Shown piece after piece: positions 4,115 to 37,329 of a DNA stretch of 42,792 nucleotides. Made by a program: the position numbers and the translations under genes. Origin of the DNA: a virus. The DNA lies in the IMG/VR virus record IMGVR_UViG_3300044675_004455, positions 1 through 42,792 of that record; one strand, written 5' to 3'. Under the pieces are notes generated by a model, which had not been told where the DNA came from, made no database searches, and was given only the letters and a program-made list of their open reading frames with translations. Each line of letters begins with the position of its first letter. The stretch's first letter is position 1.

Positions 4115-4630
4115 TTAATCTAAGTTTGATTTTAATTTACTACTAATTCTACCTAATTCCATTTTATCAATACCCAATCCATCAATTATTTTTGCCAATA
4201 ATTTAATTTTTTGATTATAAGATAATTCTTTACCATTCATTAATTCTAATGCTTTCTCAAATTTTATTTTGATTGCTGCCGGAATTACTGCTGTGTTTAT
4301 TTCATCAGCACCTTCCATAATTTTTTTTAGTTTCATAATTTTACTTTCTCCATATTGTTCATCTTCATCATCTAACCCCATAGCAACGGCTGCAGGTTGT
4401 ACATGATGGTTTGGTAACATTAAACCATATTCGGTTTTTAATTTATTAAGAATTTCTTTTTTAATATGATTTGGTAACCCTTTATGCGATGTGGATGCAA
4501 AATCCTTAGCATCTTTATCAGTCATATCCTTTGCCACCTTTGCAACTTCCGGACTTGCAGGTTTCTCGCCTTTTTGTGTAGCGTGAACCATACCCATAAA
4601 TCGTTGTTGTGCTTTAGATACTGATGGCAT
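4115..4630 (-). CDS. DUF3008-like protein with an internal capsid-tag-like segment
   Basis: 171 residues in two parts. Residues 1-65 (PSVSKAQQRFMGMVHA..., GLPNHIKKE) match the DUF3008-type phage protein pattern. Residues 98-107 read IMKLKKIMEG, resembling the MIKLKNILKE tag at the N-terminus of the protein at 12969-13763, and I-M-E/G fits the (L/I)-x-E cleavage rule of T4 prohead protease. The C-terminal 65 residues are charged and helical. The gene may therefore be a fusion of two cargo units separated by a processing site. No enzymatic motif is seen. A weak ribosome site (AAGGAAG) precedes the start. Confidence 0.65.
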   Translation of the reverse strand: MPSVSKAQQRFMGMVHATQKGEKPASPEVAKVAKDMTDKDAKDFASTSHKGLPNHIKKEILNKLKTEYGLMLPNHHVQPAAVAMGLDDEDEQYGESKIMKLKKIMEGADEINTAVIPAAIKIKFEKALELMNGKELSYNQKIKLLAKIIDGLGIDKMELGRISSKLKSNLD

Positions 4631-4662: not shown

Positions 4663-5190
4663 TTAATGTTTTATATGTTGAACTCTCCACTTAACGTTCT
4701 TAGTTCTCAACATTTGTTTTGCTGCTGATACGTTTTTCTCCGAATCATCTACAAAATAAATATCATCATACCCTTCTTTATCAATCATATTTTCAATCCA
4801 ATCTGCTTTATCTTTTGGATTATTGGATGCAAGTGCAACCACATAAATTTTTTTAGAATTTATACCTATATCACTTAAATATTTTTTGATTGGTTGGTAT
4901 GATGCTCGTGCTGTAAGGATATACACCACCTCTTTACTTTTTTGAACGATACCTCTAAGGATTTTAGTTATCTTTTGTATCTCTTGTGGTTCTTTTACCT
5001 GTTCAAAATCTTTAAAATCATAAACATCACCAGGTTTTTCAGTATACACTGCATATTGGCCGGGTGTCAGTTTACTCTTCATTCCATTATTATGGGTGAC
5101 GTAGATATAAGAGTTTGTTTTGACAAGAGTATCATCAAAATCAAATATTCGTAAATTTTTACTTTCAGTAAATAAATTTCTTGAAATCAT
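4663..5190 (-). CDS. HAD-superfamily phosphatase
   Basis: 175 residues. Motif I is RIFDFDDTLVKTN (nucleophile D in DFDDT, residues 14-26). Motif II is the threonine in YILTARAS, motif III is probably the lysine in PKDKADWIE, and motif IV is IYFVDDSEKN. The body also contains a LTPGQYAVY segment, followed by KPGDVYDFKDF. The family hydrolyses phosphate esters; the substrate may be a nucleotide, sugar phosphate or nucleic-acid end. The N-terminus MISRNLFTE/S ends in a possible prohead-protease site, so it might also be virion cargo. The strong promoter at 5226-5257 reads into this gene. Confidence 0.8.
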   Translation of the reverse strand: MISRNLFTESKNLRIFDFDDTLVKTNSYIYVTHNNGMKSKLTPGQYAVYTEKPGDVYDFKDFEQVKEPQEIQKITKILRGIVQKSKEVVYILTARASYQPIKKYLSDIGINSKKIYVVALASNNPKDKADWIENMIDKEGYDDIYFVDDSEKNVSAAKQMLRTKNVKWRVQHIKH

Positions 5191-5894: not shown

Positions 5895-6191
5895 TTAAAC
5901 CTTTAGTTTATGATAGCCAGTGTTTGCTTGTTCTATATAATTTTCAGAATTTGTTATATGGTCTTGTATCCAACCAGGTAGGTTTATTTCGGATTCTCCA
6001 ATTTTTGTTTTTAATTCTGTTGCATTTTTTATAATGGAATCTAATTGATTTTGAGCCATAGATACTTCGTGGTCTTCACCCTCTTTAAGAGGTTTAAATG
6101 CATTTGCGTAAGGATTACTATACACCTTACCCAACTCCACCTTACGACCGTTCCAGTCCATTCCAGTCATTATATTTTTTAAACTTATCAT
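5895..6191 (-). CDS. Small conserved phage protein of unknown function
   Basis: 98 residues. The N-terminus MISLKNIMTG resembles the MIKLKNILKE tag of other proteins here but lacks the cleavable glutamate. The rest is helical: EDHEVSMAQNQLDSIIKNA and LPGWIQDHITNSENYIEQAN, a form common among small T4-like phage virion proteins of unknown role. No catalytic or metal-binding motif is visible. It lies 6 bases after the GAF-like gene in genome coordinates and 4 bases from the large cargo-like gene upstream, suggesting co-expression with that virion protein. Confidence 0.6.
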   Translation of the reverse strand: MISLKNIMTGMDWNGRKVELGKVYSNPYANAFKPLKEGEDHEVSMAQNQLDSIIKNATELKTKIGESEINLPGWIQDHITNSENYIEQANTGYHKLKV

Positions 6192-6195
6192 ATGA

Positions 6196-7782
6196 TTATC
6201 CTATATAGCAGTTTAATTCGTATTTGGTTTTCATACCATATACTTGGATATGTAATTGTTTTCTTTGTACTTTACCATCTTTTGATAATTCAATACTGAA
6301 TTTATTAGTCTTTCCTTCAGATGGTTTTTTCGGACCCATTCCTATTTTTGTAAAAGAATCATCATCGTTAATAGTGTATCCTTTTTTTTCCGCATATGCT
6401 TTAGCAGTATTAATTGCTGATGTATATGAATCATGATATACTTCGTAATCAGATTTTGCTTCTTTAATTACTACAATTCCATTTTCATCACCTCTTTTAG
6501 CAGTTTTGATACCACCTTCGATTGAATCTAATTTATGTCTAACTTTGGTTGAACCTTTTGTATTACCAATTTTATCGGATGGAATTAATGTTGCAGAATA
6601 ATCATCCATTGCCACAATTTTGTAATATTTTCCATCTTCAATTCCTTTTAACATTGTAAATCCCTGTCCTAAAATTACCGAACCTACTTTTAAATCAGTT
6701 GGATATTTTGCTTCCGTTACCGATTCACTAAATGCTTTGATAATACCTTGTGCAAATTTATTATTAGCTTTACCTACAATTGCAGTTGAAATATCCATTC
6801 TATTGCTTAATGTATGTGGACCTTTCATTTTAAGAAATGCAAATAATTTTCTAGCATGAATATTATTATCATCAATAAACTTTTGAACCGCATCTCCTCT
6901 AAGACCTGTTAGTGCTGCAATTCCCATTGCTTCCACACTTGCTGCTTCGTTTACTGATTCCGTTTGAGCTTTTCTTATATTGGAAAGGGATTGTAAAGCG
7001 TTCTTTAATGTATTTTGAAATTTAGATTTTTGTTCTGAACTCTTAGTTGCAGATATTTTATCTTTTAATGCTTTAATTCTATTATTAAGATTTTGTATTT
7101 TATCACCTTGTACTGATTCAGCTATTTGTAATTCATCTTGATATTGGGTGATTTCGTTATAATCTGAATCTAACAATTGTTCTTCAATATCACGTCTTGA
7201 TGCTTTGGGATTTTTACATACAACTACTGCAACTTTCTTTTTTGTGAATGAACCACCTCTATCATACATTTTCATTATTTCTTTAAAATGTACATCGTTT
7301 TTACTCATTTCATTTACTGATTCACCAAACTCACCTCTACCATCTTTTTCTGCTGCTCTCATTGCACTACTACTATTTCTCATATCAGGAGATGCGTTTT
7401 TAAGATATTTAATAACTTGAATTTGTTTTGCTAATAAATCCTTATATATTTTAGCATATTCTTCTTTAGAAACTAAACCATTTTTTAATAAGAATAATAT
7501 AAGTGCAGGTTGTTTACCCCTAGTCTTTACATCTGATTGGGTAGTACCGGTTAATTTAGCTAAATCATTTGCTACATATATTCTATGTCCTAACGTTTTA
7601 CCTACTAATTTTGTTATGGGTTCGTTTACATATGCCATTGCTAAATCCAAAATTTCAGTTGGTGTCATATTTTTATCGGTATATTGTTTTTTACCGAAAT
7701 CATATGTTGCTTCTGATAACGATTGGTGAAAATTTTCACGAATCAATTTTGCAATTACCTTTTTTAAATCATCCATTCTCAT
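6196..7782 (-). CDS. Putative capsid-cargo polyprotein with repeated ESVNE/A junctions
   Basis: 528 residues made of dissimilar modules joined by short similar sequences: SLSE/A (21-25), ESVNE/M (154-159), ESVNE/A (275-280), ESVTE/A (353-358) and VIKE/A (438-442). All four-to-six-residue joints end in Glu followed by a small or hydrophobic residue, like T4 prohead protease sites, though the residue two before Glu is mostly V rather than L/I. The modules are a helical N-terminal unit (25-154), a basic unit, a coiled coil (220-272), a helical unit ending GIIKAF, a beta-rich unit (359-438) and a C-terminal SDYEVYH...FSIEL...HIQVYG unit. No enzyme motif is seen. ATG codons at 7782 and 7776 are both possible starts. 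Confidence 0.7.
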   Translation of the reverse strand: MRMDDLKKVIAKLIRENFHQSLSEATYDFGKKQYTDKNMTPTEILDLAMAYVNEPITKLVGKTLGHRIYVANDLAKLTGTTQSDVKTRGKQPALILFLLKNGLVSKEEYAKIYKDLLAKQIQVIKYLKNASPDMRNSSSAMRAAEKDGRGEFGESVNEMSKNDVHFKEIMKMYDRGGSFTKKKVAVVVCKNPKASRRDIEEQLLDSDYNEITQYQDELQIAESVQGDKIQNLNNRIKALKDKISATKSSEQKSKFQNTLKNALQSLSNIRKAQTESVNEAASVEAMGIAALTGLRGDAVQKFIDDNNIHARKLFAFLKMKGPHTLSNRMDISTAIVGKANNKFAQGIIKAFSESVTEAKYPTDLKVGSVILGQGFTMLKGIEDGKYYKIVAMDDYSATLIPSDKIGNTKGSTKVRHKLDSIEGGIKTAKRGDENGIVVIKEAKSDYEVYHDSYTSAINTAKAYAEKKGYTINDDDSFTKIGMGPKKPSEGKTNKFSIELSKDGKVQRKQLHIQVYGMKTKYELNCYIG

Positions 7783-8495: not shown

Positions 8496-10037
8496 TTAGA
8501 ATGTCATTTTAGAACCAATTTGGAAATTATGTAACAAACTGAATTCGGGTTCAAAACCTATATTTGCTTTATATGCAAAGTTAAATCCAAATCTTTTACT
8601 AATTCTATAATCAATAGCAGTTCCTAATAATGCACCCGGTGTTCTACTTACAGCAGTTCCACCCGTTACTGTGTTATATGCAATGGGTGCTGACATTAGA
8701 AACACCTGTGGTGAAATTGTAAGTTTTTTTGAGTATTGATATGGTTTAGTCCAAAATACCACTACTGAGGTTGATAGTGATGTGTTATATTTCATTTCAG
8801 TACCTTGCATCATTAAAGTAATTACACCTAAGTTATATCCAAACGTACCTAACGTTGGGTGTGGTTTAATCCAAGTATATCCCAGTAACCCCATCAACGT
8901 ACCTTTAAGATATGCAGTGGTGAATGAGTAACTATTAAGTGCTGTTAATTTACCATCCTCAATTACCATTTTAGTAACTCCTGTTGATAATGCGAATTGG
9001 TCAAATGTAGACCATATCAACGCAGATGTGGAATACGATTTATCACCCATTAGGGATGATTTAGATACACCTACTGACATCATTACTGCATATTCACCCT
9101 CTGCGGATTCAGTTCCTGCTAAATCAGATGATAGTATCATTGGGTTTGTAATTGCAGCTTTTTTCTTTTCCTTCTTTTCCTCTTTCTTCTCTTCCTTTTT
9201 TTCCTCTTTCTTTTCCTCTTTGGACTCTTCTTTCTTTTCCTCTTTCTTTTCTTCTTTACTTTCGGATTTACTTTCCTCTTTCTTTTCCTCTGATTTAGTT
9301 TCGGTTTTCTTTTCTTCAGTTTTTGATTCCGTTTTACTTTCCGTTTTGGTTTCGGTCTTACTTTCCGTAGATGAAGACGATGAACTACTTGAAGATGAAG
9401 ATGACGAACTACTACTTGAAGATGATGATGATGAACTACTTGCAGGTGGAGGTGTTGAACTACTACTTGCAGGTGGAGGGGTTGATGCCGGTGGTGGAGT
9501 TGCTACCGATGAAGTTGCTGCTGTTGCAGATGAACTTGCGGCGGATGATGCGGATGAACTTGCTACCGAAGAAGCGGATGATGATGCTGCACTACTAGCG
9601 GATGAACTTGCTGCTTTTGCTGCTGCTTCTGCTGCTGCTTTCGCTGCGGCATCCGATGCTGCCTTTGCTGCTGCATCTGCTGCTGCTTGTGCGGCGGCAG
9701 ATGCTGCTGCGGCTGCTGCTTGTGCTGCAGCTTGACTTACTGCTTGTTGGACCGTTTGTTGAACTACTATATTAGTTGGACACGCTAATGTGGAATATGC
9801 TAAATGGGTAGTTTGTAACCATGCATTTAATATACCACTTTGTACTTCAATGGGAGTAAATGTTCGAACTTGATTATAAAATGAAACTACTGCATTACCT
9901 CTTACATAAGTTGTAGTTGCAATTTTTATTTCACCGGTACATTTATCTACAAATGATTGTGTGAATACTTGACCATTTACTTTTTGTGCAAATAGAAAAA
10001 TACAAATTATTATAAAGTTTACTATCCATTTTTTCAT
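8496..10037 (-). CDS. Secreted outer-membrane beta-barrel protein with Ala/Ser and Lys/Glu repeats
   Basis: 513 residues. A signal peptide ends near residue 22 (FLFAQKVNG/Q). Residues 93-180 are Ala/Ser-rich with Ala-Ala-x patterns, followed by Pro-rich PPPAS repeats, a serine run of roughly 25 residues and a KEEKKEES-type stretch to about 295. Residues 300-513 look like an outer-membrane beta-barrel ending in aromatic F. The barrel shares ISPQVFLMS and DYRISKRF with ISPQIFAMS and DWKITKRF in the protein at 18634-19533, indicating paralogy. The low-complexity arm may be a periplasmic spacer reaching peptidoglycan or a surface stalk. The serine run uses mixed codons. Confidence 0.75.
   Translation of the reverse strand: MKKWIVNFIIICIFLFAQKVNGQVFTQSFVDKCTGEIKIATTTYVRGNAVVSFYNQVRTFTPIEVQSGILNAWLQTTHLAYSTLACPTNIVVQQTVQQAVSQAAAQAAAAAASAAAQAAADAAAKAASDAAAKAAAEAAAKAASSSASSAASSSASSVASSSASSAASSSATAATSSVATPPPASTPPPASSSSTPPPASSSSSSSSSSSSSSSSSSSSSSSSTESKTETKTESKTESKTEEKKTETKSEEKKEESKSESKEEKKEEKKEESKEEKKEEKKEEKKEEKKEKKKAAITNPMILSSDLAGTESAEGEYAVMMSVGVSKSSLMGDKSYSTSALIWSTFDQFALSTGVTKMVIEDGKLTALNSYSFTTAYLKGTLMGLLGYTWIKPHPTLGTFGYNLGVITLMMQGTEMKYNTSLSTSVVVFWTKPYQYSKKLTISPQVFLMSAPIAYNTVTGGTAVSRTPGALLGTAIDYRISKRFGFNFAYKANIGFEPEFSLLHNFQIGSKMTF
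9160..9730. repeat. Low-complexity coding repeat (Lys/Glu, Ser and Ala tracts)
   Basis: The plus strand shows long runs of CTTTTCTTCTTT-like units, then GATGAAGATGA-like units, then GCTGCTGC units, which encode the Lys/Glu, Ser and Ala tracts of the protein at 8496-10037. Codons vary within each tract, which suggests selection on the amino acids rather than pure slippage. Confidence 0.85.
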
Positions 10038-12364: not shown

Positions 12365-12967
12365 TTATTTAGCAGTTTTCCAACCACCACCTTTTGCTTT
12401 ATAGTTTTTTGCTGCCCAACCATTTGCATATGCAGATGGGTAAACATCAAATTTTCTTTTTGCTGCTGCTTTAGATGCTGCCCACTTTGCTGGGTCAGTT
12501 GGTACATTCTTTTCTAAGAAAAGTTCCAACTTTTGTTCTACTGTCAGTTTCATTGTATTTTCGTTTTTCTTTTTTCCAGCACAATGTGCTTTTTGTGAGA
12601 AACCTTTTGGGTTACTACAATCAATTGATTTTTTATATTTTTGAGACCAATCTTCTTTTACATTTTCACTTGCCCCAGTCTTTACTAATGTAGGTTTTTG
12701 GCCTTTTTTTTGTTCTCCACCTTTCTTTGAATCACCTGCTTTAGATTGTGCTGCTCTTTTTCTTTTTACAAATGATGCTCTACCATCTTTTCCTAATTTA
12801 GAAGCTTTTGCATTTGATAAACAGGCTGCGTATGCTGAACCCTTTTCACTATCACCACATTTTCCTGCTTTTTCACCTTTAGAATTATATCTATCCCATC
12901 CACCAGTTGGTCCACTTCCAAACCACTTACGAAGGTCTTCATTTAATATGTTAGATAATTTTATCAT
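12365..12967 (-). CDS. Basic capsid-cargo-like protein with N-terminal tag
   Basis: 200 residues from the ATG at 12967, one base after the upstream stop. A longer frame to 13024 would run into the upstream gene and is rejected. It begins MIKLSNILNE/D, almost the same as the tag of the next protein. Modules: a Lys/Gly-rich DUF5872-like unit (11-100; RKWFGSGPTGGWDRYNSKG, CGDSEKGSAYAACL), joint ENVKE/D (101-106), a SIDCSNPKGFSQKAHCAGKK unit (114-134) and a C-terminal FDVYPSAYANGWAAKNYK unit. It is very basic, so binding of packaged DNA is likely. No enzyme motif is visible. Confidence 0.7.
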   Translation of the reverse strand: MIKLSNILNEDLRKWFGSGPTGGWDRYNSKGEKAGKCGDSEKGSAYAACLSNAKASKLGKDGRASFVKRKRAAQSKAGDSKKGGEQKKGQKPTLVKTGASENVKEDWSQKYKKSIDCSNPKGFSQKAHCAGKKKNENTMKLTVEQKLELFLEKNVPTDPAKWAASKAAAKRKFDVYPSAYANGWAAKNYKAKGGGWKTAK

Positions 12968-12968
12968 A

Positions 12969-13763
12969 TTACCACTTTCTACAAGACCAATAGTTTGCTT
13001 TTGTTCTTGGACCAGGGTTATCACAATTCATCCTTGCTCTAAAAGATTTTCTAGCAGCAGGATTATCTTTCTTAATTACCATTCCCTTTTGTCCGAAGTT
13101 TACCTTAATAACTTTACCAGTCTTAGGATTCTTTACATATACCTTAAACTTCTTAACATCACCTTGCATTGGTTTACCCAACTTAACTTCCCTACCTTTG
13201 TATTCCGCTTCAAAAACACAATTGCAATTTGCTTCGTTTAATTCAGTTGTATATCCTTTTAAATAATTTAAAAAATCTTCTTCGTCATCATCCTCTACAT
13301 CTAATTCATCGTACTCATCTGAATTATCATATCCACATTTATGACAAGTATATGGGGCTTCTCCACCATCTTCTAAATCCCAACTCCATCCACATTCAGC
13401 ACATTCTATTTCACCAGTATTTTCTTCGTTGATAGGAACACAGTTAGGAACTTGTCTTCCACCTTTATCTTTCGTACCTACTTGTTTGTATCCTTCCCAA
13501 CAAGCTTCATTTAGTGATTCTTCTTTAATACTTCTTTTTTGTTGAATTAATTGTTGTATGTCTGAGAATATGTCTGCAATATCTTTATTTAACTTTTTTT
13601 CATCTGCACTCATTGGTGATTCTATATCAACATTAGAATACAATTTTTTCTTTTTAGCAATTAAGACATCTACTTTTTTAATTAAATCGTTTCTTACTTT
13701 ATCTAAATCTTTTATTATATCAGATGTAGTTGCCTCTTTTAATATATTTTTTAACTTTATCAT
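12969..13763 (-). CDS. Multi-module capsid-cargo-like protein with zinc ribbon
   Basis: 264 residues from the ATG at 13763; the longer frame to 13781 opens with TTG. It begins MIKLKNILKE/A. Joints resembling prohead-protease sites follow: ESLNE/A (82-87), PINE/E (110-114) and ELNE/A (174-178). Between them are a coiled coil (11-80), a CWEGYKQVGTKDKGGRQVP unit (88-106), a zinc ribbon with C121-x2-C124 and C140-x2-C143 followed by an acidic tail, and a basic C-terminal unit (GREVKLGKPMQGDVKKFKV... RARMNCDNPGPR). This layout suggests a packaged polyprotein. It starts 20 bases after the CsgG-like gene. Confidence 0.72.
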   Translation of the reverse strand: MIKLKNILKEATTSDIIKDLDKVRNDLIKKVDVLIAKKKKLYSNVDIESPMSADEKKLNKDIADIFSDIQQLIQQKRSIKEESLNEACWEGYKQVGTKDKGGRQVPNCVPINEENTGEIECAECGWSWDLEDGGEAPYTCHKCGYDNSDEYDELDVEDDDEEDFLNYLKGYTTELNEANCNCVFEAEYKGREVKLGKPMQGDVKKFKVYVKNPKTGKVIKVNFGQKGMVIKKDNPAARKSFRARMNCDNPGPRTKANYWSCRKW

Positions 13764-19835: not shown

Positions 19836-22130
19836 TTAGTTTATTTTTATTTTTAATGTTTTTCCATCTTTATTAACTGCATCGGTTGTTGATATTGAAG
19901 TCAATCCTAATATTCCAGTTAATCCAATTTTTGGTACAAACGTTATTTTATATTCCGTTGTTTTATCTAATAGAGTTGACCCATCGGTTATCAATGAACC
20001 TAATGTAATATAAGTACCTCTATCAGTTCCAAAATTGGTTGGGTTTCCCTTAGTTGTAAATTCCACCTTCTCAAAACTTAACGAGGTATTATCATAGTTT
20101 AATTGAAATTGTGTTCCCACCACTTCTTGTTGTAATGGGTCTAATGATATTGTAACTATAACTTTATTACCTACGTTTTCACCCATAATTAAAGCATTTA
20201 CTTCATTTGAAACTGAATTAGTACTCAAACTCATAGTTCTAATAGAATTACCTGCAACACCGGTTACGGTTTGTTGTGCAGAATGAGATAAGTTTACATC
20301 ACCTTTCCAAGTAACATTTACATTGTATGAATTATTAAGTGTACCTGTGTTTAAACTAAACGGAAATAAACTTCTTGTTGAATTGAATTTGGTATTCCAA
20401 TTAGATTTAGTAATTCCATCATAATCTGATTTACTATAAAGTTTCATCAGAAAGGTTAATAGTGGGTTTTGTGTAAGTGGTTGAACTCCTGTCAAATGTT
20501 GTAATAGTTTGTATGTATCCGCCTCATTAAATACACCATTGCCATCAACATCCGCGTTCATAAATTGAATACCATTCGTAAATTCATTTCCACTTTCATT
20601 CCCAAAGAGTCCACCATTTGATAATTCTTTGAATGCAATAAACACATCCGATACGGTCACAATACTATTATACAAAGTGTTTAAATCCGTTTGATTGGTG
20701 TATGTTAATTCAATCCCATGTTCTTTATATGACATTGTTGGTGAGAAAGTAAATTCGGCCCTAGTTCCATACCAACCATCTTGTAATCTTAATTGAGCTT
20801 GAAATGTTGATGAAGTTATTTTTGTTGTTAAATTACCGGGCATTATATATGTTTTCCAAAATCCACTTACATTACTAATGGTAACCGGTCCATCATATAT
20901 GTCAAATAATTTAATTGATGTTATATCGTTTGGAGATACTCCCGTTCCATCAAATTCTCTTTCATCTATTAACAATTGATGTCCACCTAAAGTTGCATTA
21001 TATGGATTTATTATTGCCCATTCAACTTGTCCGGCAGATGTTAATGCTTTATATCCATTACCACTTACTTTTGCGGTGTCCAAATCATTTGTAATATCAA
21101 CCTTACCTAATCCACTTATTGCTCTTGATGTATTGGTTGTTGTACTCCATAGATTATTTACATATCTATTTGCCTTTGTTGAAAATTTAGTTTCATCTAT
21201 ATTACTACCAAAATCAAAATTAAATTTAGCTGTTAAAACTTCACCATTTGAATGGGATACGCTATTGGTGTAAAATTCAGTAAATGTAGCATCATCAGGA
21301 TTAGTCCAAGTTCCATATTCAATTATGTATGGATTAGTCCAATTGTTTGATAAGTCATTCCATGTTGATTGTCCGTTCCAATTTGTTACCGCATAGTTTT
21401 CACTACCATTAACACCATTTGGTTCACCTTGTGCCCAGTTGTTATATACGCCGGCAATGTTTCCATTAAGTTGTCCGTTTTGGGTTTTCATTACCGTTCC
21501 CTTTTCAGGTCCCGCATCAATTACCCATCTACCATCAATTACTTCATCCGTTGCCGCAAACCATATATTAGCTTGAGGAACATTAACATATATAAACGCA
21601 TTTTCATCGGCAGAAGTAATTGTTACCAAATAACCTTTTTGTCCTTTGAATGTTGATAATAATGATGCTGCTCTAGCACCAGTATAAGTTGTACCTGCCG
21701 TTACGGGTTTATAAAAATGACCATTTACACCATTGTAATAAAATCCTGTTGGATTGATTGTTGCAGCAACTGATAATTTTACATTACCAACTACTGAACC
21801 TGTGTTTATTTTTAGAGAAGCTAATGCAGTATTGATACTTGACATTGTACCCGTTATTACTAAACGAGTTTTATTACCACTTAAAGTAAATCCACTTGCT
21901 GCAGTTAGACCCGTTGTTGTATTTAATACAAATGTTGTACCTGTTGGGAATTCTACTAAACTGATTGATGCTAATAGAGTTGCTGTAGAACCGAATCCAC
22001 TTAAAATAAAACCACTTGCATCTTGTGCAGTTGTGGATGGTAAAAAAGATTTAGAGTCCGGAGCAGATACACTCTGTCCGAACCCTAAAAATGAAATAAA
22101 TAATAATAAAATTGTAACTAATTGTTTCAT
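19836..22130 (-). CDS. Secreted C-type lectin / dockerin-like / cohesin-like protein
   Basis: 764 residues from the ATG at 22130, chosen because it gives a clean signal peptide (MKQLVTILLLFISFLGFGQ) and lies one base past the upstream stop; the longer frame opens with TTG. Residues 136-273 are a C-type lectin domain with EPN (236-238) and WND (257-259), the usual sugar and calcium-binding pair. Residues 526-548 (NADVDGNGVFNEADTYKLL) match a dockerin EF-hand loop. Residues 650-764 resemble a cohesin-like beta-sandwich (VTISLDPLQQEVVGTQFQL, LNYDNTSLSFEKVEF). The C-terminal half is paralogous to the protein at 22132-23799. It probably binds glycans at the cell surface. Confidence 0.8.
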   Translation of the reverse strand: MKQLVTILLLFISFLGFGQSVSAPDSKSFLPSTTAQDASGFILSGFGSTATLLASISLVEFPTGTTFVLNTTTGLTAASGFTLSGNKTRLVITGTMSSINTALASLKINTGSVVGNVKLSVAATINPTGFYYNGVNGHFYKPVTAGTTYTGARAASLLSTFKGQKGYLVTITSADENAFIYVNVPQANIWFAATDEVIDGRWVIDAGPEKGTVMKTQNGQLNGNIAGVYNNWAQGEPNGVNGSENYAVTNWNGQSTWNDLSNNWTNPYIIEYGTWTNPDDATFTEFYTNSVSHSNGEVLTAKFNFDFGSNIDETKFSTKANRYVNNLWSTTTNTSRAISGLGKVDITNDLDTAKVSGNGYKALTSAGQVEWAIINPYNATLGGHQLLIDEREFDGTGVSPNDITSIKLFDIYDGPVTISNVSGFWKTYIMPGNLTTKITSSTFQAQLRLQDGWYGTRAEFTFSPTMSYKEHGIELTYTNQTDLNTLYNSIVTVSDVFIAFKELSNGGLFGNESGNEFTNGIQFMNADVDGNGVFNEADTYKLLQHLTGVQPLTQNPLLTFLMKLYSKSDYDGITKSNWNTKFNSTRSLFPFSLNTGTLNNSYNVNVTWKGDVNLSHSAQQTVTGVAGNSIRTMSLSTNSVSNEVNALIMGENVGNKVIVTISLDPLQQEVVGTQFQLNYDNTSLSFEKVEFTTKGNPTNFGTDRGTYITLGSLITDGSTLLDKTTEYKITFVPKIGLTGILGLTSISTTDAVNKDGKTLKIKIN

Positions 22131-22131
22131 A

Positions 22132-23799
22132 TTATTCAACTATTAGGTTTATTTTTTTACCACTACCATCTACGGCATCTGATAATACAAAGTAAAATAA
22201 TCCTGCTGTATTTGTTAATGTTGTCTTAGGTGTAAATATTAATTTATATGGAGTACCTATTTTAATTCTTGCAGTTTTTATTTGGTCCATAGAACCAAAT
22301 GTTAATCTACCATTCTCATGTGTAGAAAAGTTGGTAATAGTTGAACCTGCATCGAATATTACATTATCTAAAGTTAATTTAGATTCATCATAATTCATAA
22401 TCACTTCTAATCCAGCTAATCCTTCTTTTGTTAAATTAGTTGTTAGTACCACCTTACCACCTTCCAATGTAGAGGATACACTTAATTTAGCGGTTTCCAA
22501 TACCGGTGGAGTATATGCCATTGATTTTATTGACATTGATTTATTAACTCCAACTTCACCATTAATTGAATTTGCGTAGTTACCAGTTGCGATTCTACTT
22601 GCAATTTCAGTTAGAGAAGATGAGTGAGAGAAATCCAAATCACCATTCCAAGCAAAAACCATATCTACTGCTTGAGTTGCCGATGTTACTGTTGTTATAT
22701 ACTTATTTGTGCCATCTAACCATCCTTGATTTAATAATGAACTACCATAACGAAGTGATGTTGCAGTAGATGATGGGATGAATGCTTTTGTACTCATATC
22801 AATACCCATTATATGTGAAAATAAATAATATGCATCGGTCTCATTATAAGTACCTGCACCTGCACCATCATCTTTAGATACATTAGCCATTAATAGTTCT
22901 CGATTATATTTAAAAAAGTTTTTTGTACCACTAATATCAGTTTGGGCAATACCTAAAAATACTTTATATGCATCAGACACTGTTATAACATTGTTCATCC
23001 ATGTTTTACCATTTGGCGGACTCACCATTAATCCAATCGTATCTCCTACTTTAACTTCGGTTGTAAATGTTGCTTCACCACTTGCATCTAATTGTTTAAA
23101 TGCTAATGGGGCTTTAGTCCAATCAACATCAGTTTTAGTTGCGTTTAATTGTAATAACGAAATCCCGTGGTCAGCAATCGTATATCCTTGTGGAAACAAT
23201 ACTCTCACCTTAAATGAAGAAGTACCACCTTTTACTGAACCTAATGATATTGTACCAGGATTTGTGGTGATTGGAGTAATACTTGCACTTGTAGCATCGA
23301 TTGAATACGCTAAATCTAATTTATGAATATTTGTATAATCAACTAAATCTTTGATTACATATTTTTGAGTTGCTATATCACCATTGATTGCGGCATCGGT
23401 TCTTTGTACCGTCAATTGTCCAACATTCCAATCTGCATTTACTGCATATGCCCACGGGGTTGCTAGATATTGTGCATATAAACTTGTAGCGGTAATACTA
23501 TTTGCGGTACTTGCTGTAAATTTATACCCTGTCCAACCTGTGTAAAATGTTTGTACCGATGTTCCTTGTGAAAATGTGGTTGAAACGTATGCAAGGGCTT
23601 TGTTATTATATTGGTATCTTAACCAAAAATAACGAGGTGTATTTGTATCTTTAATAACAGTATACTTCACCGAAAGAGTATCACCAACTTTTAAGTTTGT
23701 GGTGGGTGAAAACGATTGATTTACTGCCAATTGTCCGTTAGACGTAAATGCGATAGTAGATAGTATTAATATCCCTAAAAATGTTAATAGTTTTTTCAT
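22132..23799 (-). CDS. Secreted dockerin-like / cohesin-like protein
   Basis: 555 residues. Signal peptide MKKLLTFLGILILSTIAFTSNG/Q. The N-terminal half is beta-rich (VGDTLSVKYTV...). Around 305-335 a dockerin-like stretch includes GAGTYNETDAYYLFSHIMG, and the last 120 residues resemble a cohesin-like sandwich (GLAGLEVIMNYDESKLTLDNV). Shared landmarks with the neighbouring lectin protein include TVSDAYKVF / TVSDVFIAF, WNGDLDFSHS / WKGDVNLSHS and the closing AVDGSGKKINL / AVNKDGKTLKI. The pair may self-associate through dockerin-cohesin contacts. The start overlaps the upstream stop as ATGA. Confidence 0.75.
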   Translation of the reverse strand: MKKLLTFLGILILSTIAFTSNGQLAVNQSFSPTTNLKVGDTLSVKYTVIKDTNTPRYFWLRYQYNNKALAYVSTTFSQGTSVQTFYTGWTGYKFTASTANSITATSLYAQYLATPWAYAVNADWNVGQLTVQRTDAAINGDIATQKYVIKDLVDYTNIHKLDLAYSIDATSASITPITTNPGTISLGSVKGGTSSFKVRVLFPQGYTIADHGISLLQLNATKTDVDWTKAPLAFKQLDASGEATFTTEVKVGDTIGLMVSPPNGKTWMNNVITVSDAYKVFLGIAQTDISGTKNFFKYNRELLMANVSKDDGAGAGTYNETDAYYLFSHIMGIDMSTKAFIPSSTATSLRYGSSLLNQGWLDGTNKYITTVTSATQAVDMVFAWNGDLDFSHSSSLTEIASRIATGNYANSINGEVGVNKSMSIKSMAYTPPVLETAKLSVSSTLEGGKVVLTTNLTKEGLAGLEVIMNYDESKLTLDNVIFDAGSTITNFSTHENGRLTFGSMDQIKTARIKIGTPYKLIFTPKTTLTNTAGLFYFVLSDAVDGSGKKINLIVE

Positions 23800-24540: not shown

Positions 24541-24566
24541 AAAAACCTCATTGTTAAATGAGGTCT
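24541..24566 (-). terminator. Rho-independent terminator
   Basis: Coding strand ACCTCATT, loop TAAC, AATGAGGT, then TTTTTG. The stem overlaps the stop codon of the glycosyltransferase at 24554 and closes the 38936-24554 glycosyltransferase run. Confidence 0.9.
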
Positions 24567-25447
24567 TGTAATTCTTTATTAAAATTTTCTTCGGATATCT
24601 TTTTAAATTCATCTCGTTTATCAAAAGCACTAAGATGATTTAATAGATGTGAATTATTTCGGTATTTGTAATTTTCACAAATTACTAAATTTTTTATTTT
24701 AAATTGATGTATTTCCATATCAGTAGTTACCATCAGTTTTTCTGCAGCCCACATTATAAATGTATCTTCAAATCCGTAATGACTGAACGTTTCAGGTATT
24801 CTAATTCTTCGTAATAATTCGCCTGATATACAAGTGAACCACCCTCCTCCAAATTTAAATCTCGGTTGATTAGGTATAGTATTATTGACCACTTCTAATG
24901 TAACCTCTCCTTTAACTCCACAATCTATATACGGATTATTTGTAAGGTGATAATCTAATGGTTTTGTTAAATACTTTTCATTAACTAAACAATCCCAGCT
25001 GGAATCCCATACTCTGACAATCTCCGGTGTTATAATAGTATGTGGATATACTTCATTAATTGCTATTAGTGTTTCCTCTATATAAGATAGAGTTTTTTCT
25101 TCGAATATGATATCAGTATCTAACCAAATATAATAATTTGCAGTTGCTTGAGTTTCTAATGTATGTTTTCTATGAGATACACATCCCTTTATATCTTCAG
25201 ATGCAGTAAAATATTTTGCACACCAATCGGTATGTGCTGATAGTTTTAATAATTTATCAATAAAATAACTTTTTGGTAACGTAGACCGTTTCCAATCAAC
25301 CATATCATTTGCTATACACATACTTACATCCAACACCCATTCATGTGTTCCACTTAGGTATTTTGATGCACGTCTTAATTGAGTTAGTAGAATTTCTAAA
25401 TCATCAATTTCATGTGGTAAAGTAAATATTGATATTACTATCCTCAT
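24554..25447 (-). CDS. GT-A glycosyltransferase, first of a tandem pair
   Basis: 297 residues. The metal-binding DxD motif is YYIWLDTDIIFEE (about 104-116). The stretch FKFGGGWFTCISGELL and SHYGFEDTFIMWAAE with E-D residues form the acceptor/catalytic part. The gene at 25444-26343 shares VVMCV..., YYLWLDTDIIFDP, RQWDSTWDCLVNE and KFGGGWFALISKELM, so the two arose by duplication. Product and acceptor are unknown. Start overlaps the neighbour's stop as ATGA. Confidence 0.8.
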   Translation of the reverse strand: MRIVISIFTLPHEIDDLEILLTQLRRASKYLSGTHEWVLDVSMCIANDMVDWKRSTLPKSYFIDKLLKLSAHTDWCAKYFTASEDIKGCVSHRKHTLETQATANYYIWLDTDIIFEEKTLSYIEETLIAINEVYPHTIITPEIVRVWDSSWDCLVNEKYLTKPLDYHLTNNPYIDCGVKGEVTLEVVNNTIPNQPRFKFGGGWFTCISGELLRRIRIPETFSHYGFEDTFIMWAAEKLMVTTDMEIHQFKIKNLVICENYKYRNNSHLLNHLSAFDKRDEFKKISEENFNKELQDLI

Positions 25448-26343
25448 TTATTATTTAGTATATTTTGTAAACCTACGAAAAATAATTCTTCGTTATATTT
25501 TTTATACTCCTCACGTTTATCTATAAATTGTATCTGTCCTTTATAAGTAGTTATCCTATCAAAATAATTTTCACAAACAACTATATTTTTTAATTTGAAT
25601 TGTTTTATGGTAGGGTCTTGTAATATATTTGCACCCCACATTAAGTAGGTATCGTCTAATCCATAATGACCGTAGTTTTCTGGAAATGGGATTACCTTCA
25701 TTAATTCTTTTGATATCAATGCGAACCAACCTCCACCAAATTTCATATATGGTTGGTGAGGAACATTGTTTCTAACCTCTTCTAATTTTGGGTCAACCCC
25801 ATCACCAATAATGGTATCTATATGTGGATTATTCGTTGCTTGATATCCTATTGGTTTAGTTATAAATCTTTCATTAACTAAACAATCCCATGTGGAATCC
25901 CATTGTCTTACTATTTCTGGTATAGATACAAATTTAGTAAATCCTGCATACTCAATTACATCTATTGAATTGATTGAATGTGCTAGGGTTTGTGGGTCAA
26001 AGATTATATCGGTATCTAACCACAAATAATATTTTGAATCAGAATACCCTGCCAATCTTCGCATTGAGGTACATCCATTTATAGTAGTTGTAGTTTCAAA
26101 TGTACCATTAGATGCCCAATCCGTTAAGGGTTTTAATCCTAAAAACTTTTTCGTGCAATCTTCTTTGGTAACACTACTCTTACCCCAATTAATTATTTCA
26201 TCAGAGACACACATAACAATATTAAATTTAATATTATCACATTGTTCTTTTGTTAGATAATCCTTTCCAATATTTAATCGATTTAATGATTTTTCTAAAT
26301 CATCAATATCTGTTGGTGATATCCAAATTACAATTTCTATCAT
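25444..26343 (-). CDS. GT-A glycosyltransferase, second of a tandem pair
   Basis: 299 residues with the same plan as the gene at 24554-25447: DIDDLEKSLNRL start, DxD site YYLWLDTDIIFDP, WDSTWDCLVNERF block, KFGGGWFALIS and HYGLDDTYLMWGA. It transfers a sugar from a nucleotide-activated donor, probably as part of a glycan built by this island. The ATGA overlaps on both sides point to one transcript and linked translation. Divergence from its twin suggests different donors or acceptors. Confidence 0.8.
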   Translation of the reverse strand: MIEIVIWISPTDIDDLEKSLNRLNIGKDYLTKEQCDNIKFNIVMCVSDEIINWGKSSVTKEDCTKKFLGLKPLTDWASNGTFETTTTINGCTSMRRLAGYSDSKYYLWLDTDIIFDPQTLAHSINSIDVIEYAGFTKFVSIPEIVRQWDSTWDCLVNERFITKPIGYQATNNPHIDTIIGDGVDPKLEEVRNNVPHQPYMKFGGGWFALISKELMKVIPFPENYGHYGLDDTYLMWGANILQDPTIKQFKLKNIVVCENYFDRITTYKGQIQFIDKREEYKKYNEELFFVGLQNILNNK

Positions 26344-26831
26344 ACTAATTCTGCTACTTTTGCCATTTTACCAAATACACATATTGTATTCTGACCAACC
26401 AATGGTAAATTATCAGTTAACATAACCAATTGGTCTTTATCTATTATATATTTGTATTCATCTTTTATCTGCACTGATTCTCCTTTACTCTTTTTATTTT
26501 TAATATAATTGATAAAGGTATTAGGATTACTTCCCCATGTGATATTACCAATTCTAATAATGTTATAATTTTCAAAATTAGATTTAACTAATAACTCCAT
26601 TCTTAGCTTGTGTTGTAAGTATTTGTTACCTCCTACCTTTTGGACATCATCAACTGAAATAGAACTAAAATAGAATAAACACTTTGTTCTATCTTGTTTA
26701 TTTAATAATTCCATTTCACGCATAAATTCAGACTCTCTTATTTCATTACTATTAGAAACACCCGATGCAAAAAAGATTGTCCCCTCTCTATCATTTAAGA
26801 CAGATGCAATATCACCTTTACCTACAATCAT
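26340..26831 (-). CDS. Short SDR/epimerase-like protein
   Basis: 163 residues. The beginning (MIVGKGDIASVL, TIFFASGVSNS) and the middle (CLFYFSSISVDDVQ followed by YLQHKLRMELLV) resemble the NAD-binding core and Y-x-x-x-K pair of extended short-chain dehydrogenases/epimerases, with the later IIRIGNITWG block. Normal family members are about 300 residues, so this is a shortened form lacking most of the substrate domain, and the Rossmann GxxGxxG is poor. It may be a reduced enzyme or a binding protein. The sugar-nucleotide context supports an epimerase ancestry. Confidence 0.6.
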   Translation of the reverse strand: MIVGKGDIASVLNDREGTIFFASGVSNSNEIRESEFMREMELLNKQDRTKCLFYFSSISVDDVQKVGGNKYLQHKLRMELLVKSNFENYNIIRIGNITWGSNPNTFINYIKNKKSKGESVQIKDEYKYIIDKDQLVMLTDNLPLVGQNTICVFGKMAKVAELV

Positions 26832-27625
26832 TATTTATATAAATTTTTAATTTGATTTTTAAGATACGGGTCTCTATCGTATTGATGTACTATTACAAAC
26901 TCCTCTCCTTTTTGATTATAAAACTTACCATTTTTATATGTTGGAGTTGGTTCTAATAATGGAATTTCATTTTTCTTAATCCAAACTGTCCCCAATTGAG
27001 TTGCAAATCCTTCTTCTTGTGATACAAACTGAACTGAGTTTTTAAAATGTTCTAATTGGATTAAAACATTATATGCGGCTTGGTCTGAAAGTTGTTCTGG
27101 ATTTGCAGTTGTTTTACTCCATCTATATATTTCAATAAATAGGTCTCTAATTGCATTCCTTTTTCCAATAATAGTTCCTGCACAATAACTGATTTGGTTT
27201 TTCATTCCAAACTCCCACTCCATTGGAAACGTTGTTCCACTATTGATACAAGTCCACGATTCATTTTGCATTATCATACATTCTGAAAATGCTAATATAT
27301 TACCCTTCATCTGATTATTCAACCATTCCGTTGGGTCTTTTTGAAATATAACATCTTTTACATCGGTCCAAATGATTACATCTGTTTCATATGATTGTAA
27401 AAGTGAATACATATCCCTAAATCTTTGTAAGATAATGTGTTCTTGCAATTCCGATTGAAATAAAACCCAACCTTTCTTTGTAAGATATTCTATAACATTA
27501 TTAGATACTTCATAAAGTAACATTACTTTCTCGCCATTGAATCCGCTTTTCTCAATTGATTCAACGTATGGTCTAATATCATCTATTCCGTATTTGGTTA
27601 TACAACCTACTATTGTGTATTTCAT
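26831..27625 (-). CDS. GT-A-like glycosyltransferase
   Basis: 264 residues. Start YTIVGCITKYGIDDIRPYV; metal-site-like IIWTDVKDVIFQKDP at about 91-105; CINSGTTFP, GTIIGKR and a closing VHQYDRDPYLK, features seen in phage and bacterial glycosyltransferases that act on surface glycans. No membrane helix. TAATG overlaps at both ends couple it to its neighbours. The nucleotide-sugar donor is unknown. Confidence 0.7.
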   Translation of the reverse strand: MKYTIVGCITKYGIDDIRPYVESIEKSGFNGEKVMLLYEVSNNVIEYLTKKGWVLFQSELQEHIILQRFRDMYSLLQSYETDVIIWTDVKDVIFQKDPTEWLNNQMKGNILAFSECMIMQNESWTCINSGTTFPMEWEFGMKNQISYCAGTIIGKRNAIRDLFIEIYRWSKTTANPEQLSDQAAYNVLIQLEHFKNSVQFVSQEEGFATQLGTVWIKKNEIPLLEPTPTYKNGKFYNQKGEEFVIVHQYDRDPYLKNQIKNLYK

Positions 27626-28416
27626 TATAACTTTCTAATTTCTTCTATATCTTTTAAATAATCAACTATTTCATAATCTTTCCAATTGGTATAAGTTGGA
27701 TACAAATCAGGTCTTTCATTATACCAAGCTTGAACCATTTGTTGGTTTTGAACAACATCATATCCACCGGCCATAATAACAAATTGTGCCAACGAATCCG
27801 GCCAACCAATTAATTTATCAATTGGTGCAATGGTATCATAATTTAATTCTAATATCCGTCTAAACTTTTCCCAACTCCAAATCCATTTTTGACAATCTAT
27901 AATAAACCCACCACTAGCACCATATCCTTTGTTGCCAAATATATTTAATGGAACATTAGTATTACCCCCCACTTGTTCTATTATATTTAATATAGTTTCC
28001 GTTATTATATTTGCATTATATTCTAAAACTGATATTCCAAATTCTCTATTTTTAATAATACTGATTGGTTTAATGATAAAACTATCTTCTTCTAGGATAA
28101 TCATAAATTTAGAATCGGATTTTTTACAAGCCCAATATATGTTATCACACCAGAGTAATGCGTTATCCTTTGGCCAACACTCTCTATCATTTTTATGATT
28201 TCCAAAATTACCAGGATATCCTATTTGAAATGGATTTTTATAACATTCTGCATTATATTTTTCAGCTATTTTTGTATAATTTTCAAAATCACCATTATCA
28301 TCGACACTAATACAAATATCACCATCAGGATAAAACTCTTTAAATTTTCGGAAGGAATTATCAGCTGCTTCCCAATTTTTATAACCCCAAAGATATGCGT
28401 TTAATAATTTACTCAT
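27625..28416 (-). CDS. Glycosyltransferase-like protein
   Basis: 263 residues. A possible donor-binding region is YPDGDICISVDDNGDF, followed later by SKFMIILEEDSFIIKP, where EED replaces the DxD of classical GT-A enzymes. The second half has GYGASGGFIIDCQKWIW and WPDSLAQFVIMAGGYDV, typical of an acceptor region. The family is tentative. It overlaps its upstream neighbour by 8 bases and shares a TAATG junction with the next gene. Confidence 0.65.
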   Translation of the reverse strand: MSKLLNAYLWGYKNWEAADNSFRKFKEFYPDGDICISVDDNGDFENYTKIAEKYNAECYKNPFQIGYPGNFGNHKNDRECWPKDNALLWCDNIYWACKKSDSKFMIILEEDSFIIKPISIIKNREFGISVLEYNANIITETILNIIEQVGGNTNVPLNIFGNKGYGASGGFIIDCQKWIWSWEKFRRILELNYDTIAPIDKLIGWPDSLAQFVIMAGGYDVVQNQQMVQAWYNERPDLYPTYTNWKDYEIVDYLKDIEEIRKL

Positions 28417-29077
28417 GTCTTGTTAATGTATATAAGTCATTTATGTGACTTCTTTTAAATTCATCACAAACTATTTTTACATTATCTTTACCTACCTGAT
28501 TACACATTGGTATATAAATATTATGCATTGCAACTCCAACTCCATGTGGTGGATTGGTCTCCATTTCTATAATTGCATCTATTAAGTTTTTTGTCATAGA
28601 ATGTGGGAATACTATAAAGGTATCACTTACAATAGGGACATGGGTAAATTCAGGTTCTCTCCATAAATAATTACATTTATTGAAATCATATTCGTATTCT
28701 TTAAATGGATTTTTATTAAATGATATATCAAATCTTGTTGATATTACTAAATCTAAATCCTCATCAAGCAACTGATTTAAACTATTGATATATGTGATTG
28801 ATATTATTTTTATTCCGGTTTCAATTAAATCACCACCTCCTAATTTATTATAATTTGGGTCTAAAAATGTTGATTTTTTTGGATTGTATATTTTTACAAT
28901 ATCTTCTTTTTTTGGAGAGTCATATGTAAATAAGTAAAAAGATATTTCATGTCCTTCTTCTTTTAATGGATTTACAACATTACTCATAAACCCATCAATA
29001 GCATCTTCATAATTTCTATATCTACCAACCCCACCGTCATTGTATGAAACTCCTACTAAATTAATTCCAATTTTCAT
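28409..29077 (-). CDS. Glycosyltransferase-like protein (R-x-D type)
   Basis: 222 residues. The N-terminus MKIGINLVGVSYNDGG and the central DLDLVISTRFDISFNKNP recall the R-x-D family also seen at 29502-30197 (IIRSRYDMG) and 32913-33584 (VVIRARFDLLL). These share a short alpha/beta plan and probably bind a nucleotide sugar. The C-terminal half holds MTKNLIDAIIEME and NQVGKDNVKIVCDEF. Family assignment is by internal comparison only. Confidence 0.6.
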   Translation of the reverse strand: MKIGINLVGVSYNDGGVGRYRNYEDAIDGFMSNVVNPLKEEGHEISFYLFTYDSPKKEDIVKIYNPKKSTFLDPNYNKLGGGDLIETGIKIISITYINSLNQLLDEDLDLVISTRFDISFNKNPFKEYEYDFNKCNYLWREPEFTHVPIVSDTFIVFPHSMTKNLIDAIIEMETNPPHGVGVAMHNIYIPMCNQVGKDNVKIVCDEFKRSHINDLYTLTRHE

Positions 29078-29511
29078 TTTTTATATTTTTCTATGTAATC
29101 TGAACAAACTCCCATACATTCACTAATATCATCATTATAAATTTCAGGCATTACTGCTATACTTCCTTTAATTGGTTGTTTACCAGGATATACCCACATC
29201 CACCCATTTGAAGTTAAAGTCATAACATCATTTTCATGCCAAAAATAGTTAAATCCATCAAATGAATTAAACCATTCCATCGCTTCTATATTTTTACAAT
29301 GTATCCATAAACTATAATGTCTATCATTTAACCATTGTTGTGTTATACTATATTGAGGTTCATCATGACCTAATAATAGGACACCATCAACCATCCAAAT
29401 ATCGATTTCTACATTATAACCTGCATAAATAGCTTCATCAATATAATCTGGATGATTTTCGTTTTGTGGTATTTTACCATTTAAATTTCCTCTATGTGAT
29501 ATTAAAACCAT
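29074..29511 (-). CDS. GDPD-like phosphodiesterase
   Basis: 145 residues. The start LISHRGNLNGK and the following YNVEIDIWMVDGVLLLGHD match the catalytic region of glycerophosphodiester phosphodiesterases (HR..., E-x-D, GHD). It is much shorter than the usual 230-250 residues, but the catalytic N-terminal part is retained. Within a glycosyltransferase island it may remove glycerol-phosphate or a phosphodiester-linked group from a glycan. ATGA overlap with the next gene. Confidence 0.72.
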   Translation of the reverse strand: MVLISHRGNLNGKIPQNENHPDYIDEAIYAGYNVEIDIWMVDGVLLLGHDEPQYSITQQWLNDRHYSLWIHCKNIEAMEWFNSFDGFNYFWHENDVMTLTSNGWMWVYPGKQPIKGSIAVMPEIYNDDISECMGVCSDYIEKYKK

Positions 29512-30197
29512 ACTTTATCATCTCTTAATATTCTGAAATCAATATTATCTGTTTTTTCGCATATTTTTATTAAATTATTTCTTTTTAAGAAATTTGTAAA
29601 ATTATGTTCTGCCGAATCTATGTACCCAATTCCTTTATGATATTCTACAATATCGGTAAAAATATTACTAAACACTTTAGTTGCATTATCCATATTAGTT
29701 ATAAGAATATTATCATCGTGGATTCCACTACCGCGGTAGTGATAATTGCAGGTATATATTTTATTTAAATCTAATAAATCTAATTTTATAAATCCATTCC
29801 CCATATCATATCTACTACGAATTATACAATCGTATTTAACTCCAGATTCTAATACATGTTTATAGGTACTTTCCCAACTATAATACATTGGAAAACTTCT
29901 AAAATTACCATATACATCATATTCTGGTAATGGTCTTGATTTATCATTATTTGGATTATCAATACCTTCTCTATATTTTGTGAATTTAAAAGGAGGTTCT
30001 ATATATAAATATTTTGAGTTGGGGTATACTTCTTTTATAATATCACTATCCTCATTGTTTGTTATAGCATCACGTTTACTTTCCCATGCATGTAAATATA
30101 AATCACAATCATTGTTATCAATTATATCTTTCCAATAAGAATTATAACCTTCTTTCACTTTTCGTGGAAGACCGGTTAACATTAACGCAATTTTCAT
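29502..30197 (-). CDS. Glycosyltransferase-like protein (R-x-D type)
   Basis: 231 residues. It begins MKIALMLTGLPRKVKEGYN and has YDCIIRSRYDMGNGF near the middle. The closely similar plan of the gene at 32913-33584 (MKIALCISGKPRS, YDVVIRARFDLLL) shows a paralogous family scattered in the island. The R-x-D segment likely replaces DxD as the nucleotide-sugar or metal site. A further conserved-looking stretch is HAWESKRDA against HSWDECRAI. Acceptor unknown. Confidence 0.65.
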   Translation of the reverse strand: MKIALMLTGLPRKVKEGYNSYWKDIIDNNDCDLYLHAWESKRDAITNNEDSDIIKEVYPNSKYLYIEPPFKFTKYREGIDNPNNDKSRPLPEYDVYGNFRSFPMYYSWESTYKHVLESGVKYDCIIRSRYDMGNGFIKLDLLDLNKIYTCNYHYRGSGIHDDNILITNMDNATKVFSNIFTDIVEYHKGIGYIDSAEHNFTNFLKRNNLIKICEKTDNIDFRILRDDKVWF

Positions 30198-32304: not shown

Positions 32305-32307
32305 AAC

Positions 32308-32910: not shown

Positions 32911-32912
32911 TT

Positions 32913-35589: not shown

Positions 35590-35590
35590 T

Positions 35591-36892: not shown

Positions 36893-36902
36893 ATTTTATT
36901 TT

Positions 36903-37328: not shown

Positions 37329-37329
37329 A

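Follow-up and report, generated by a model that had tools for sequence, protein, structure and literature searches.

A modular protein of a T4-like phage, likely a gp21-processed capsid-cargo polyprotein, and the exchange of its modules at conserved joints

Architecture of the 528-aa protein

The 528-aa protein described here is likely (we put the probability at ca. 0.8) a modular internal-protein polyprotein of a T4-like phage, i.e., capsid cargo processed by a gp21-type protease; its cleavage, packaging, retention and injection are inferred. It is encoded in a 42.8-kb virus record, hereafter the window, by which we mean the whole stretch of DNA analysed. The initial annotation had marked 6196-7782 without giving a strand and had predicted five or six small proteins from it. 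The gene is real, but it lies on the minus strand (the plus-strand frame is packed with stops), and the count has to be corrected to six modules plus a leader. The architecture is modular, with all modules basic except B1:

6196..7782, minus strand: likely cargo polyprotein gene, 528 aa, ATG start (ORF and translation; module homologues in varied contexts)
7711..7782, minus strand: N-terminal leader, residues 1-24 (24 aa), ending SLSE/A, amphipathic start
7309..7710, minus strand: module A, residues 25-158, 134 aa, 14.9 kDa, pI 9.3
7117..7308, minus strand: module B1, residues 159-222, 64 aa, 7.5 kDa, pI 5.8
6946..7116, minus strand: module B2, residues 223-279, 57 aa, 6.4 kDa, pI 10.1
6712..6945, minus strand: module C, residues 280-357, 78 aa, 8.3 kDa, pI 9.6
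6460..6711, minus strand: module D, residues 358-441, 84 aa, 9.1 kDa, pI 9.2
6199..6459, minus strand: module E, residues 442-528, 87 aa, 9.9 kDa, pI 9.1

Whole-protein family searches gave no Pfam or PHROGs match, none of the modules has a known activity, and a full-length AlphaFold model made without an alignment reached only pLDDT 40 and was left unused. The modules meet at six joints, each ending in Glu:

7708..7722, minus strand: joint 1, SLSE24/A25; compare the gp23 site LLSE/A in contig G001
7309..7323, minus strand: joint 2, ESVNE158/M159; DNA GAATCAGTAAATGAA
7117..7125, minus strand: joint 3, IAE222/S223 (LQIAE222/S223); B1 homologues stop here and B2 homologues occur separately
6946..6960, minus strand: joint 4, ESVNE279/A280; DNA GAATCAGTAAACGAA
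6712..6726, minus strand: joint 5, ESVTE357/A358; from the sequence
6460..6471, minus strand: joint 6, VIKE441/A442; from the sequence

Five of them had been proposed from sequence alone (SLSE/A at 21-25, ESVNE/M at 154-159, ESVNE/A at 275-280, ESVTE/A at 353-358 and VIKE/A at 438-442) and all five held, with the residues correct. The remaining one, IAE222/S223, had been overlooked inside the third stretch of that first reading, and we count it as a joint because the two halves of this stretch have separate homologues.

One objection is that the joints are a chance or compositional artefact of a Glu-rich protein. ESV[NT]E occurs three times in the 528 residues, and among 20,000 residue shuffles only 20 contained one copy and none more, but the word was picked post hoc. 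In a blind test that accepted any five-letter word with one mismatch and at least three copies, 21 of 60 shuffles had an equally large word family, and the loose rule [LIV]xE[AGS] is met ca. 3 times per 1000 residues in all proteins. Repetition within this one protein is therefore only modest evidence. The chance explanation is nevertheless all but excluded, contradicted as it is by the breakpoint tests, the leader equivalence and the database-wide word scan described below; on the comparative data from relatives, the joints are far beyond chance.

Modules are exchanged at the joints

A scan of viral contigs with the 528-aa protein retrieved 13 loci in which the matches end at or near joints. 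Module A has an 80% identical copy in L002, flanked there by ESVNE/A and ESVNE/V; a protein in L118 carries another, the third, at its C-terminus. B1 has homologues in different contexts in L160, L201, L123, L178 and L165, and B2 is found without B1 in L114, L003, L077 and L108. Module C was recovered from 82 loci in an IMG/VR scan, lying in L010 amid many other modules and in L003 in one ORF, with D and E in another. An 88% identical copy of D is present in L123, where the order B1-D-C is the reverse of the C-D seen here; D also precedes C in L004 and L005, and further copies are found in L006 and L165. Finally, module E was recovered from at least 399 viral loci in a contig scan.

Among 205 loci there were 69 non-identical ORFs with two or more ESV..E joints, up to a maximum of nine in 1192 aa. 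A non-redundant set of 40 multi-joint proteins gave 763 homology breakpoints, of which 158 lay within 3 aa of a joint, about four times what is expected by chance (40 +/- 8 when the joint positions were rotated, with a maximum of 71 in 500 rotations). A breakpoint was found within 3 aa of 67% of the joint Glu residues vs 33% of the other Glu. Modules are thus reordered, gained and lost between phages exactly at the joints, as shown by sequence comparison. The initial annotation had proposed looking for homologues with shuffled modules and kept joints; this comparison was run and came out positive.

Module E is predicted by AlphaFold to be a compact helix-helix-three-strand domain (pLDDT 85, pTM 0.75). 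A fold search at E <= 0.001 returned nothing from the PDB, and the fold therefore gives no clue to function. A GTDB scan with this module returned a single locus and no host signal for the T4-like carriers. This locus, on a Hydrogenedentes MAG contig (L329, 2359-4665), encodes a 768-aa protein in which module E is an internal domain; it lies directly downstream of a portal-like protein and has no ESVNE, an arrangement that recalls polyvalent proteins.

Leaders and joints are equivalent

The 24-residue leader resembles those of other multi-joint proteins, e.g., MKEQLRKIVREI...ESVNE/A in L063-L065, and a capsid-targeting role for it is inferred. It is longer than the leaders of ca. 10 residues of the capsid-targeting sequence (CTS) type, which are present in two neighbouring window proteins. 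In the 10-residue CTS of T4 IPIII, residues 4 and 7 serve targeting, and residues 8 and 10 processing, which is blocked in T4 by Asp at position 10 (PMC9026906). Modules of the family are also found alone after a 10-residue leader, MIKLKxLLxE/, in this same T4 register. Among 134 candidate proteins with hydrophobic residues at 4, 7 and 8, 60 have Glu at position 10 (the register M..h..hh.E10), against a background of 10%.

The same module can follow either element. Module E stands alone after the leaders MIKLKGLIKE/AKSDYEVYHK and MISLVRLITE/AKSDYEVYHK, and elsewhere follows many different modules via ESVTE/A, ESIKE/A, KVVSE/A or NPIKE/A; module C appears both as MNLKKLITE/SASKEAMGIA, after a leader, and as ESVNE/AASKEAMGIA, after a joint. 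Whether a leader or one of the varied upstream modules precedes them, C and E are nearly always reached across [V/I/L/M]xE. Joints and N-terminal leaders are, in effect, interchangeable before the same module. In L003 a leader, MIKLRDILNE/, is embedded between modules D and E, and a regular expression found three such internal relics in the locus set vs 0.35 expected after shuffling. It is possible that neighbouring cargo genes have fused by loss of a stop codon, for which these data are suggestive only.

Head protease and cut sites

A gp21-like protease elsewhere in the genome had been another of the proposed checks. The window, a fragment, contains neither gp21 nor gp23, and no head genes were identified in the region of the 528-aa gene, but the protease is present in longer related contigs: Peptidase_S77 (the gp21-type prohead protease) was detected in five of them, and Gp23 likewise in five. 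The protease of the relatives is homologous to the crystal structure of T4 gp21 (5jbl, E 3e-15), and their capsid protein aligns to T4 gp23 from a few residues past LLDE61/A62. Two isolates come nearest by capsid protein (ca. 50-52% identity), Microcystis phage Mel-JY01 and Flavobacterium phage immuto; the latter (vB_FspM_immuto, laboratory host Flavobacterium sp. LMO8), which is among the nearest cultured kin of the relatives, also has the gp21-type protease and an ESVNE protein, YP_010114604, in which GRVLKGL follows ESVNE and DDYLQP follows ESLNE. In 42 fetched loci containing gp21 plus gp22 or gp23, joint-bearing genes lie around these, typically in the gp21-gp22 interval, and many of the relatives' polyprotein genes sit within the gp20-gp21-gp22-gp23 cluster. 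The association with the protease and the head cluster is a plain observation in the relatives.

The cut sites of the clade's own head proteins were inferred by alignment, without N-terminal sequencing. They are LLDE/A, LLSE/A, QIVSE/A (immuto) and QLISE/A (Mel-JY01) for gp23; ITE/G, VKE/S, LTE/S and VSE/G for gp22; and VNE/S, MNE/S and LQE/S for the C-terminal site of gp21. Over 160 joint contexts the P3 residue was V in 118, I in 25 and L in 4, and P1' was A in 55, G in 32, S in 17 and D in 16. This P3-P1-P1' usage matches the inferred gp21, gp22 and gp23 sites of the same phages. The (L/I)-x-E rule of the T4 protease, which the initial annotation had invoked, held only in part, as the clade uses [V/I/L/M]-x-E, mostly V-N-E. 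Since the T4 rule is L/I-x-E, Val at P3 would be a feature of this clade, for which there is no biochemical proof.

Several points speak against the processed polyprotein: no ESVNE protein has yielded a cleavage product or a virion peptide, gp21 and gp23 are missing from the window fragment, most joints have Val at P3 instead of the Leu or Ile of the T4 rule, and the joints, in the ESVNE word and in codon choice, are more conserved than an L/I-x-E protease would require. An alternative would be an uncut multidomain virion protein, similar to the polyvalent proteins, in which the chain stays whole and ESVNE is a flexible linker or a scaffold-docking motif. The conservation of ESVNE beyond the minimal gp21 site favors it, as does the single occurrence of module E inside a large Hydrogenedentes MAG protein without ESVNE. 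However, joints and N-terminal leaders replace one another before the same module, and the residues around the joint Glu fit the inferred head-protein sites, so that we consider the uncut chain unlikely and prefer the processed polyprotein.

The joint is also a DNA word

The conservation of the joint extends to its codons. The exact 15-mer GAATCAGTAAACGAA is common to 35 of 80 context-distinct ESVNE joints vs ca. 6.5% expected from the product of control codon-pair frequencies; GTA is used in 94% of ESVNE joints vs about 62% in the control, and AAC in 74% vs about 40%. A 17-bp extension of the word was searched in IMG/VR and recovered from at least 120 stretches. Each of its 140 occurrences there reads ESVNEA in frame within an open frame, and 109 lie in multi-joint ORFs. 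When two loci share the downstream module but differ in the upstream one (185 pairs), DNA identity rises from ca. 0.3 to ca. 1.0 on reaching the word's first base, and when they share the upstream module (97 pairs) it drops after base 15-16. Selecting the pairs partly anchors these profiles, and some loci of the set had been selected by the word. An unanchored blastn comparison, restricted to loci not selected in this way, agrees: of its 738 alignment starts, 125 lie no more than 3 nt from the base at which the word begins (11.7 in the null, at most 23), and of its 784 alignment ends, 124 lie no more than 3 nt from the word's last base (10.9 in the null, at most 26). Sequence comparison shows, then, that the joint word is a boundary of exchange at the DNA level, although recombination and the descent of copied joints are not separated by these data.

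It could be argued that the joint is primarily a DNA element, such as a recombination hotspot or a short exchange homology, and resembles a protease site only incidentally. The codon-level conservation, with one exact 15-mer in so many joints, and the switch of identity at the word's edges are in line with this. Against it, the reading frame was kept in every one of the 140 occurrences, the joints with other wording (ESINE, ESVTE, VIKE, VVSE) are still hydrophobic-x-Glu, and the leaders follow the hydrophobic-x-Glu rule without the word. We regard this explanation as very unlikely. A bolder reading gives the joint both roles: the head protease would cut at ESVNE/A, and GAATCAGTAAACGAA would be the module-exchange boundary, in a shuffle-and-cut cassette for combining injected proteins; we would not lean either way on it. 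With the joint DNA word conserved, any module could be swapped in with its cut site attached.

Cargo nature and comparison with known systems

The inter-joint modules (n=135) have a median size of 77 aa and a median pI of 9.3. T4 internal proteins are basic too. The modules differ in this from the gp22-like scaffold, which is acidic and encoded by a separate gene. Among 67 cargo proteins the known domains were mainly DUF3008, and a Zeta/AAA_33-type kinase with the leader MIRLSDLLNE/ was also found. The annotated virion proteins of cyanophage S-SCSM1, a phage whose virion proteins were identified by MS on CsCl-purified particles, include one with DUF3008, an NMNAT whose leader is MKSFLQFLKE/A, and the modular ORF92. 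These detections concern homologues of other cargo and not of the 528-aa protein, and the literature searched contained no MS data on the immuto group. By both sequence-level tests, i.e., the shuffling and the protease search, the capsid-cargo polyprotein proposed by the initial annotation is supported; packaging and cutting remain inferred, without virion peptide data.

The closest rival is a polyprotein of the prohead core or scaffold, with modules like T4 gp67, gp68 and gp22 that are cut by gp21 and whose fragments mostly leave before DNA packaging. In its favor, the genes of many relatives are within the gp20-gp21-gp22-gp23 cluster, and gp21 cuts T4 gp22, gp67 and gp68 into multiple fragments (PMC9026906). 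But the modules are basic and of internal-protein size, their composition and order vary among phages, unlike a conserved core, a distinct acidic gp22-like scaffold gene exists, and some of the cargo that bears T4-type leaders is enzyme-like (Zeta/AAA kinase, HAD, NMNAT). Overall we find the core reading unlikely. As a counterpoint, T4 core-protein fragments mostly exit the head, so it remains possible that the modules are core peptides and not cargo.

If the protein is capsid cargo, as we prefer, the chain would be made late and its N-terminal leader would bring it to the prohead core, and during head maturation the gp21-type serine protease would cut after the Glu of each joint, as inferred from site identity and gene context. 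The six small, mostly basic modules would then stay with the head DNA and be ejected like T4 IPI-III and Alt. The swapping of modules at joints is shown by sequence comparison, and the recombination mechanism behind it is inferred.

This would be similar to what happens with IPI, IPII, IPIII and Alt of T4, which have a CTS leader, are cleaved by gp21 and are ejected with the DNA. Here too there are leaders in the cargo family that are hydrophobic at positions 4, 7 and 8 and have Glu as residue 10, a gp21-type protease, and small, basic, variable proteins encoded in or near a T4-like head cluster. The T4 proteins, however, are single cargo (with an additional C-terminal cut in Alt), whereas here many modules lie on one chain and are shuffled at joints. 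T4 gp22, gp67 and gp68 also have several gp21-type sites and, like the genes of many relatives, belong to the head-core gene cluster (cutting in our case being inferred), but they are scaffold or core proteins whose fragments mostly exit the head, and they have not been reported as exchangeable mosaics. In phiKZ, 201phi2-1 and SPN3US a large set of head proteins, the inner-body or ejection proteins, is processed following Glu by a protease related to gp21, at 29 sites in 201phi2-1. They differ in having another specificity and, in the literature read, mostly N-terminal propeptides, without any account there of modules shuffled at a standard joint.

Polyvalent proteins are multidomain phage proteins, thought to be co-injected, that are domain-shuffled and have been likened to viral polyproteins (Iyer et al. 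2017, PMC5512222). Embedded in them are metallopeptidase or other known effector domains, while the modules of the 528-aa chain are small and unassigned. Pfam-type searches found no peptidase match in this protein or in the 67 cargo proteins, and, unlike in polyvalent proteins, any cutting would have to come in trans, from the protease of the head. None of the T4 internal, T4 core or polyvalent proteins is described as a standard-joint cargo polyprotein in the literature found. The initial annotation knew of no multi-domain cargo polyprotein, and the literature we searched yielded none either, nor any account of ESVNEA or EEVELDE, of prohead-protease cargo polyproteins or of module shuffling in internal proteins.

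Along similar lines, modular proteins of Kyanoviridae (S-SCSM1 ORF92, Bellamy gp171, Melnitz QZI94751 and QZI94753) share modules with this family (E; CWxGYKQVG; KGxxVxLxKP; DUF3008) and have joint-like EEVELDE/ or LTFGQFDE/ stretches. They differ in the wording of the joints and in their fewer and longer pieces, and are not called polyproteins in the literature found. Related modules with such stretches occur in proteins of Melnitz, HTVC008M, C48C1, Bellamy, S-P4 and S-ShM2. In five Kyanoviridae loci (L040, L330-L333) the joints EEVELDE/, EELELDE/ and LTFGQFDE/ lie just before a shared RTRYAKETGKD module. A parallel cyanophage cargo system with its own joint wording seems likely.

If the polyprotein reading is correct, a phage would deliver multiple effectors as a single chain of many small cargo proteins that share a uniform cut site, and that site would also mark where modules swap. 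A large pool of unassigned phage ORFs could then be listed as candidate injected proteins whose boundaries are defined, and ESVNE joints together with MIKLKxLLxE leaders would be a simple signature for finding cargo.

Neighbouring genes and minor observations

Several other genes of the window have cargo-like features:

5895..6191, minus strand: cargo-type gene, 98 aa, adjoining the polyprotein gene
4115..4630, minus strand: DUF3008 (KAQQRFMG) module plus a second module (Pfam DUF3008)
4663..5190, minus strand: HAD-type phosphatase (Pfam HAD_2) with a possible leader, MISRNLFTE/S, seen by eye; cargo status inferred
12365..12967, minus strand: CTS-type leader protein, MIKLSNILNE/D; weak DUF5872-like C-terminal match
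12969..13763, minus strand: CTS-type leader protein, MIKLKNILKE/A; internal ESLNE/A and TELNE/A

The 98-aa protein is 68% identical over 78 aa to a module of L077 that is fused through ESVNE/G to module C in the gp21-gp22 interval. The two modules at 4115..4630 are joined via an embedded Met in a leader-like IMKLKKIME/GADEI, and both are also present in the L160 polyprotein with other modules in between; the embedded leaders here and in L003 look as if neighbouring cargo genes had fused, which is a possibility only. The 12969..13763 protein has two modules in common with Melnitz QZI94751.

HAD-type or deoxyribonucleotidase-like proteins with leader-like N-termini lie beside cargo genes in the window (4663-5190), in L206 (18320-18919) and in L040 (7178-7690), and might be injected nucleotide enzymes. 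In Mel-JY01 the gp21-gp22 interval, where relatives have polyproteins, encodes a 388-aa protein (L335:10430-11596); an Alt-like ADP-ribosyltransferase C-terminus suggested by eye was not confirmed by Pfam or PDB searches and is not used here. Just upstream of gp21 in L015 (1999-2763), two near-identical dockerin-like repeats (QQKIDLNKNGKVDGxDLxKLRAG) are followed by a cargo module shared with the end of the L005 polyprotein.

Elsewhere in the window there is a long run of glycosyltransferase-, methyltransferase- and sugar-nucleotide-like genes (24554-38724, mostly by eye) and a radical SAM/SPASM protein (39894-41192). Signal-peptide-like proteins, unusual for a phage, are encoded at 8496-10037 and 19836-23799, one with long Ala/Ser/Glu-Lys low-complexity tracts and two that are large and secreted-looking.
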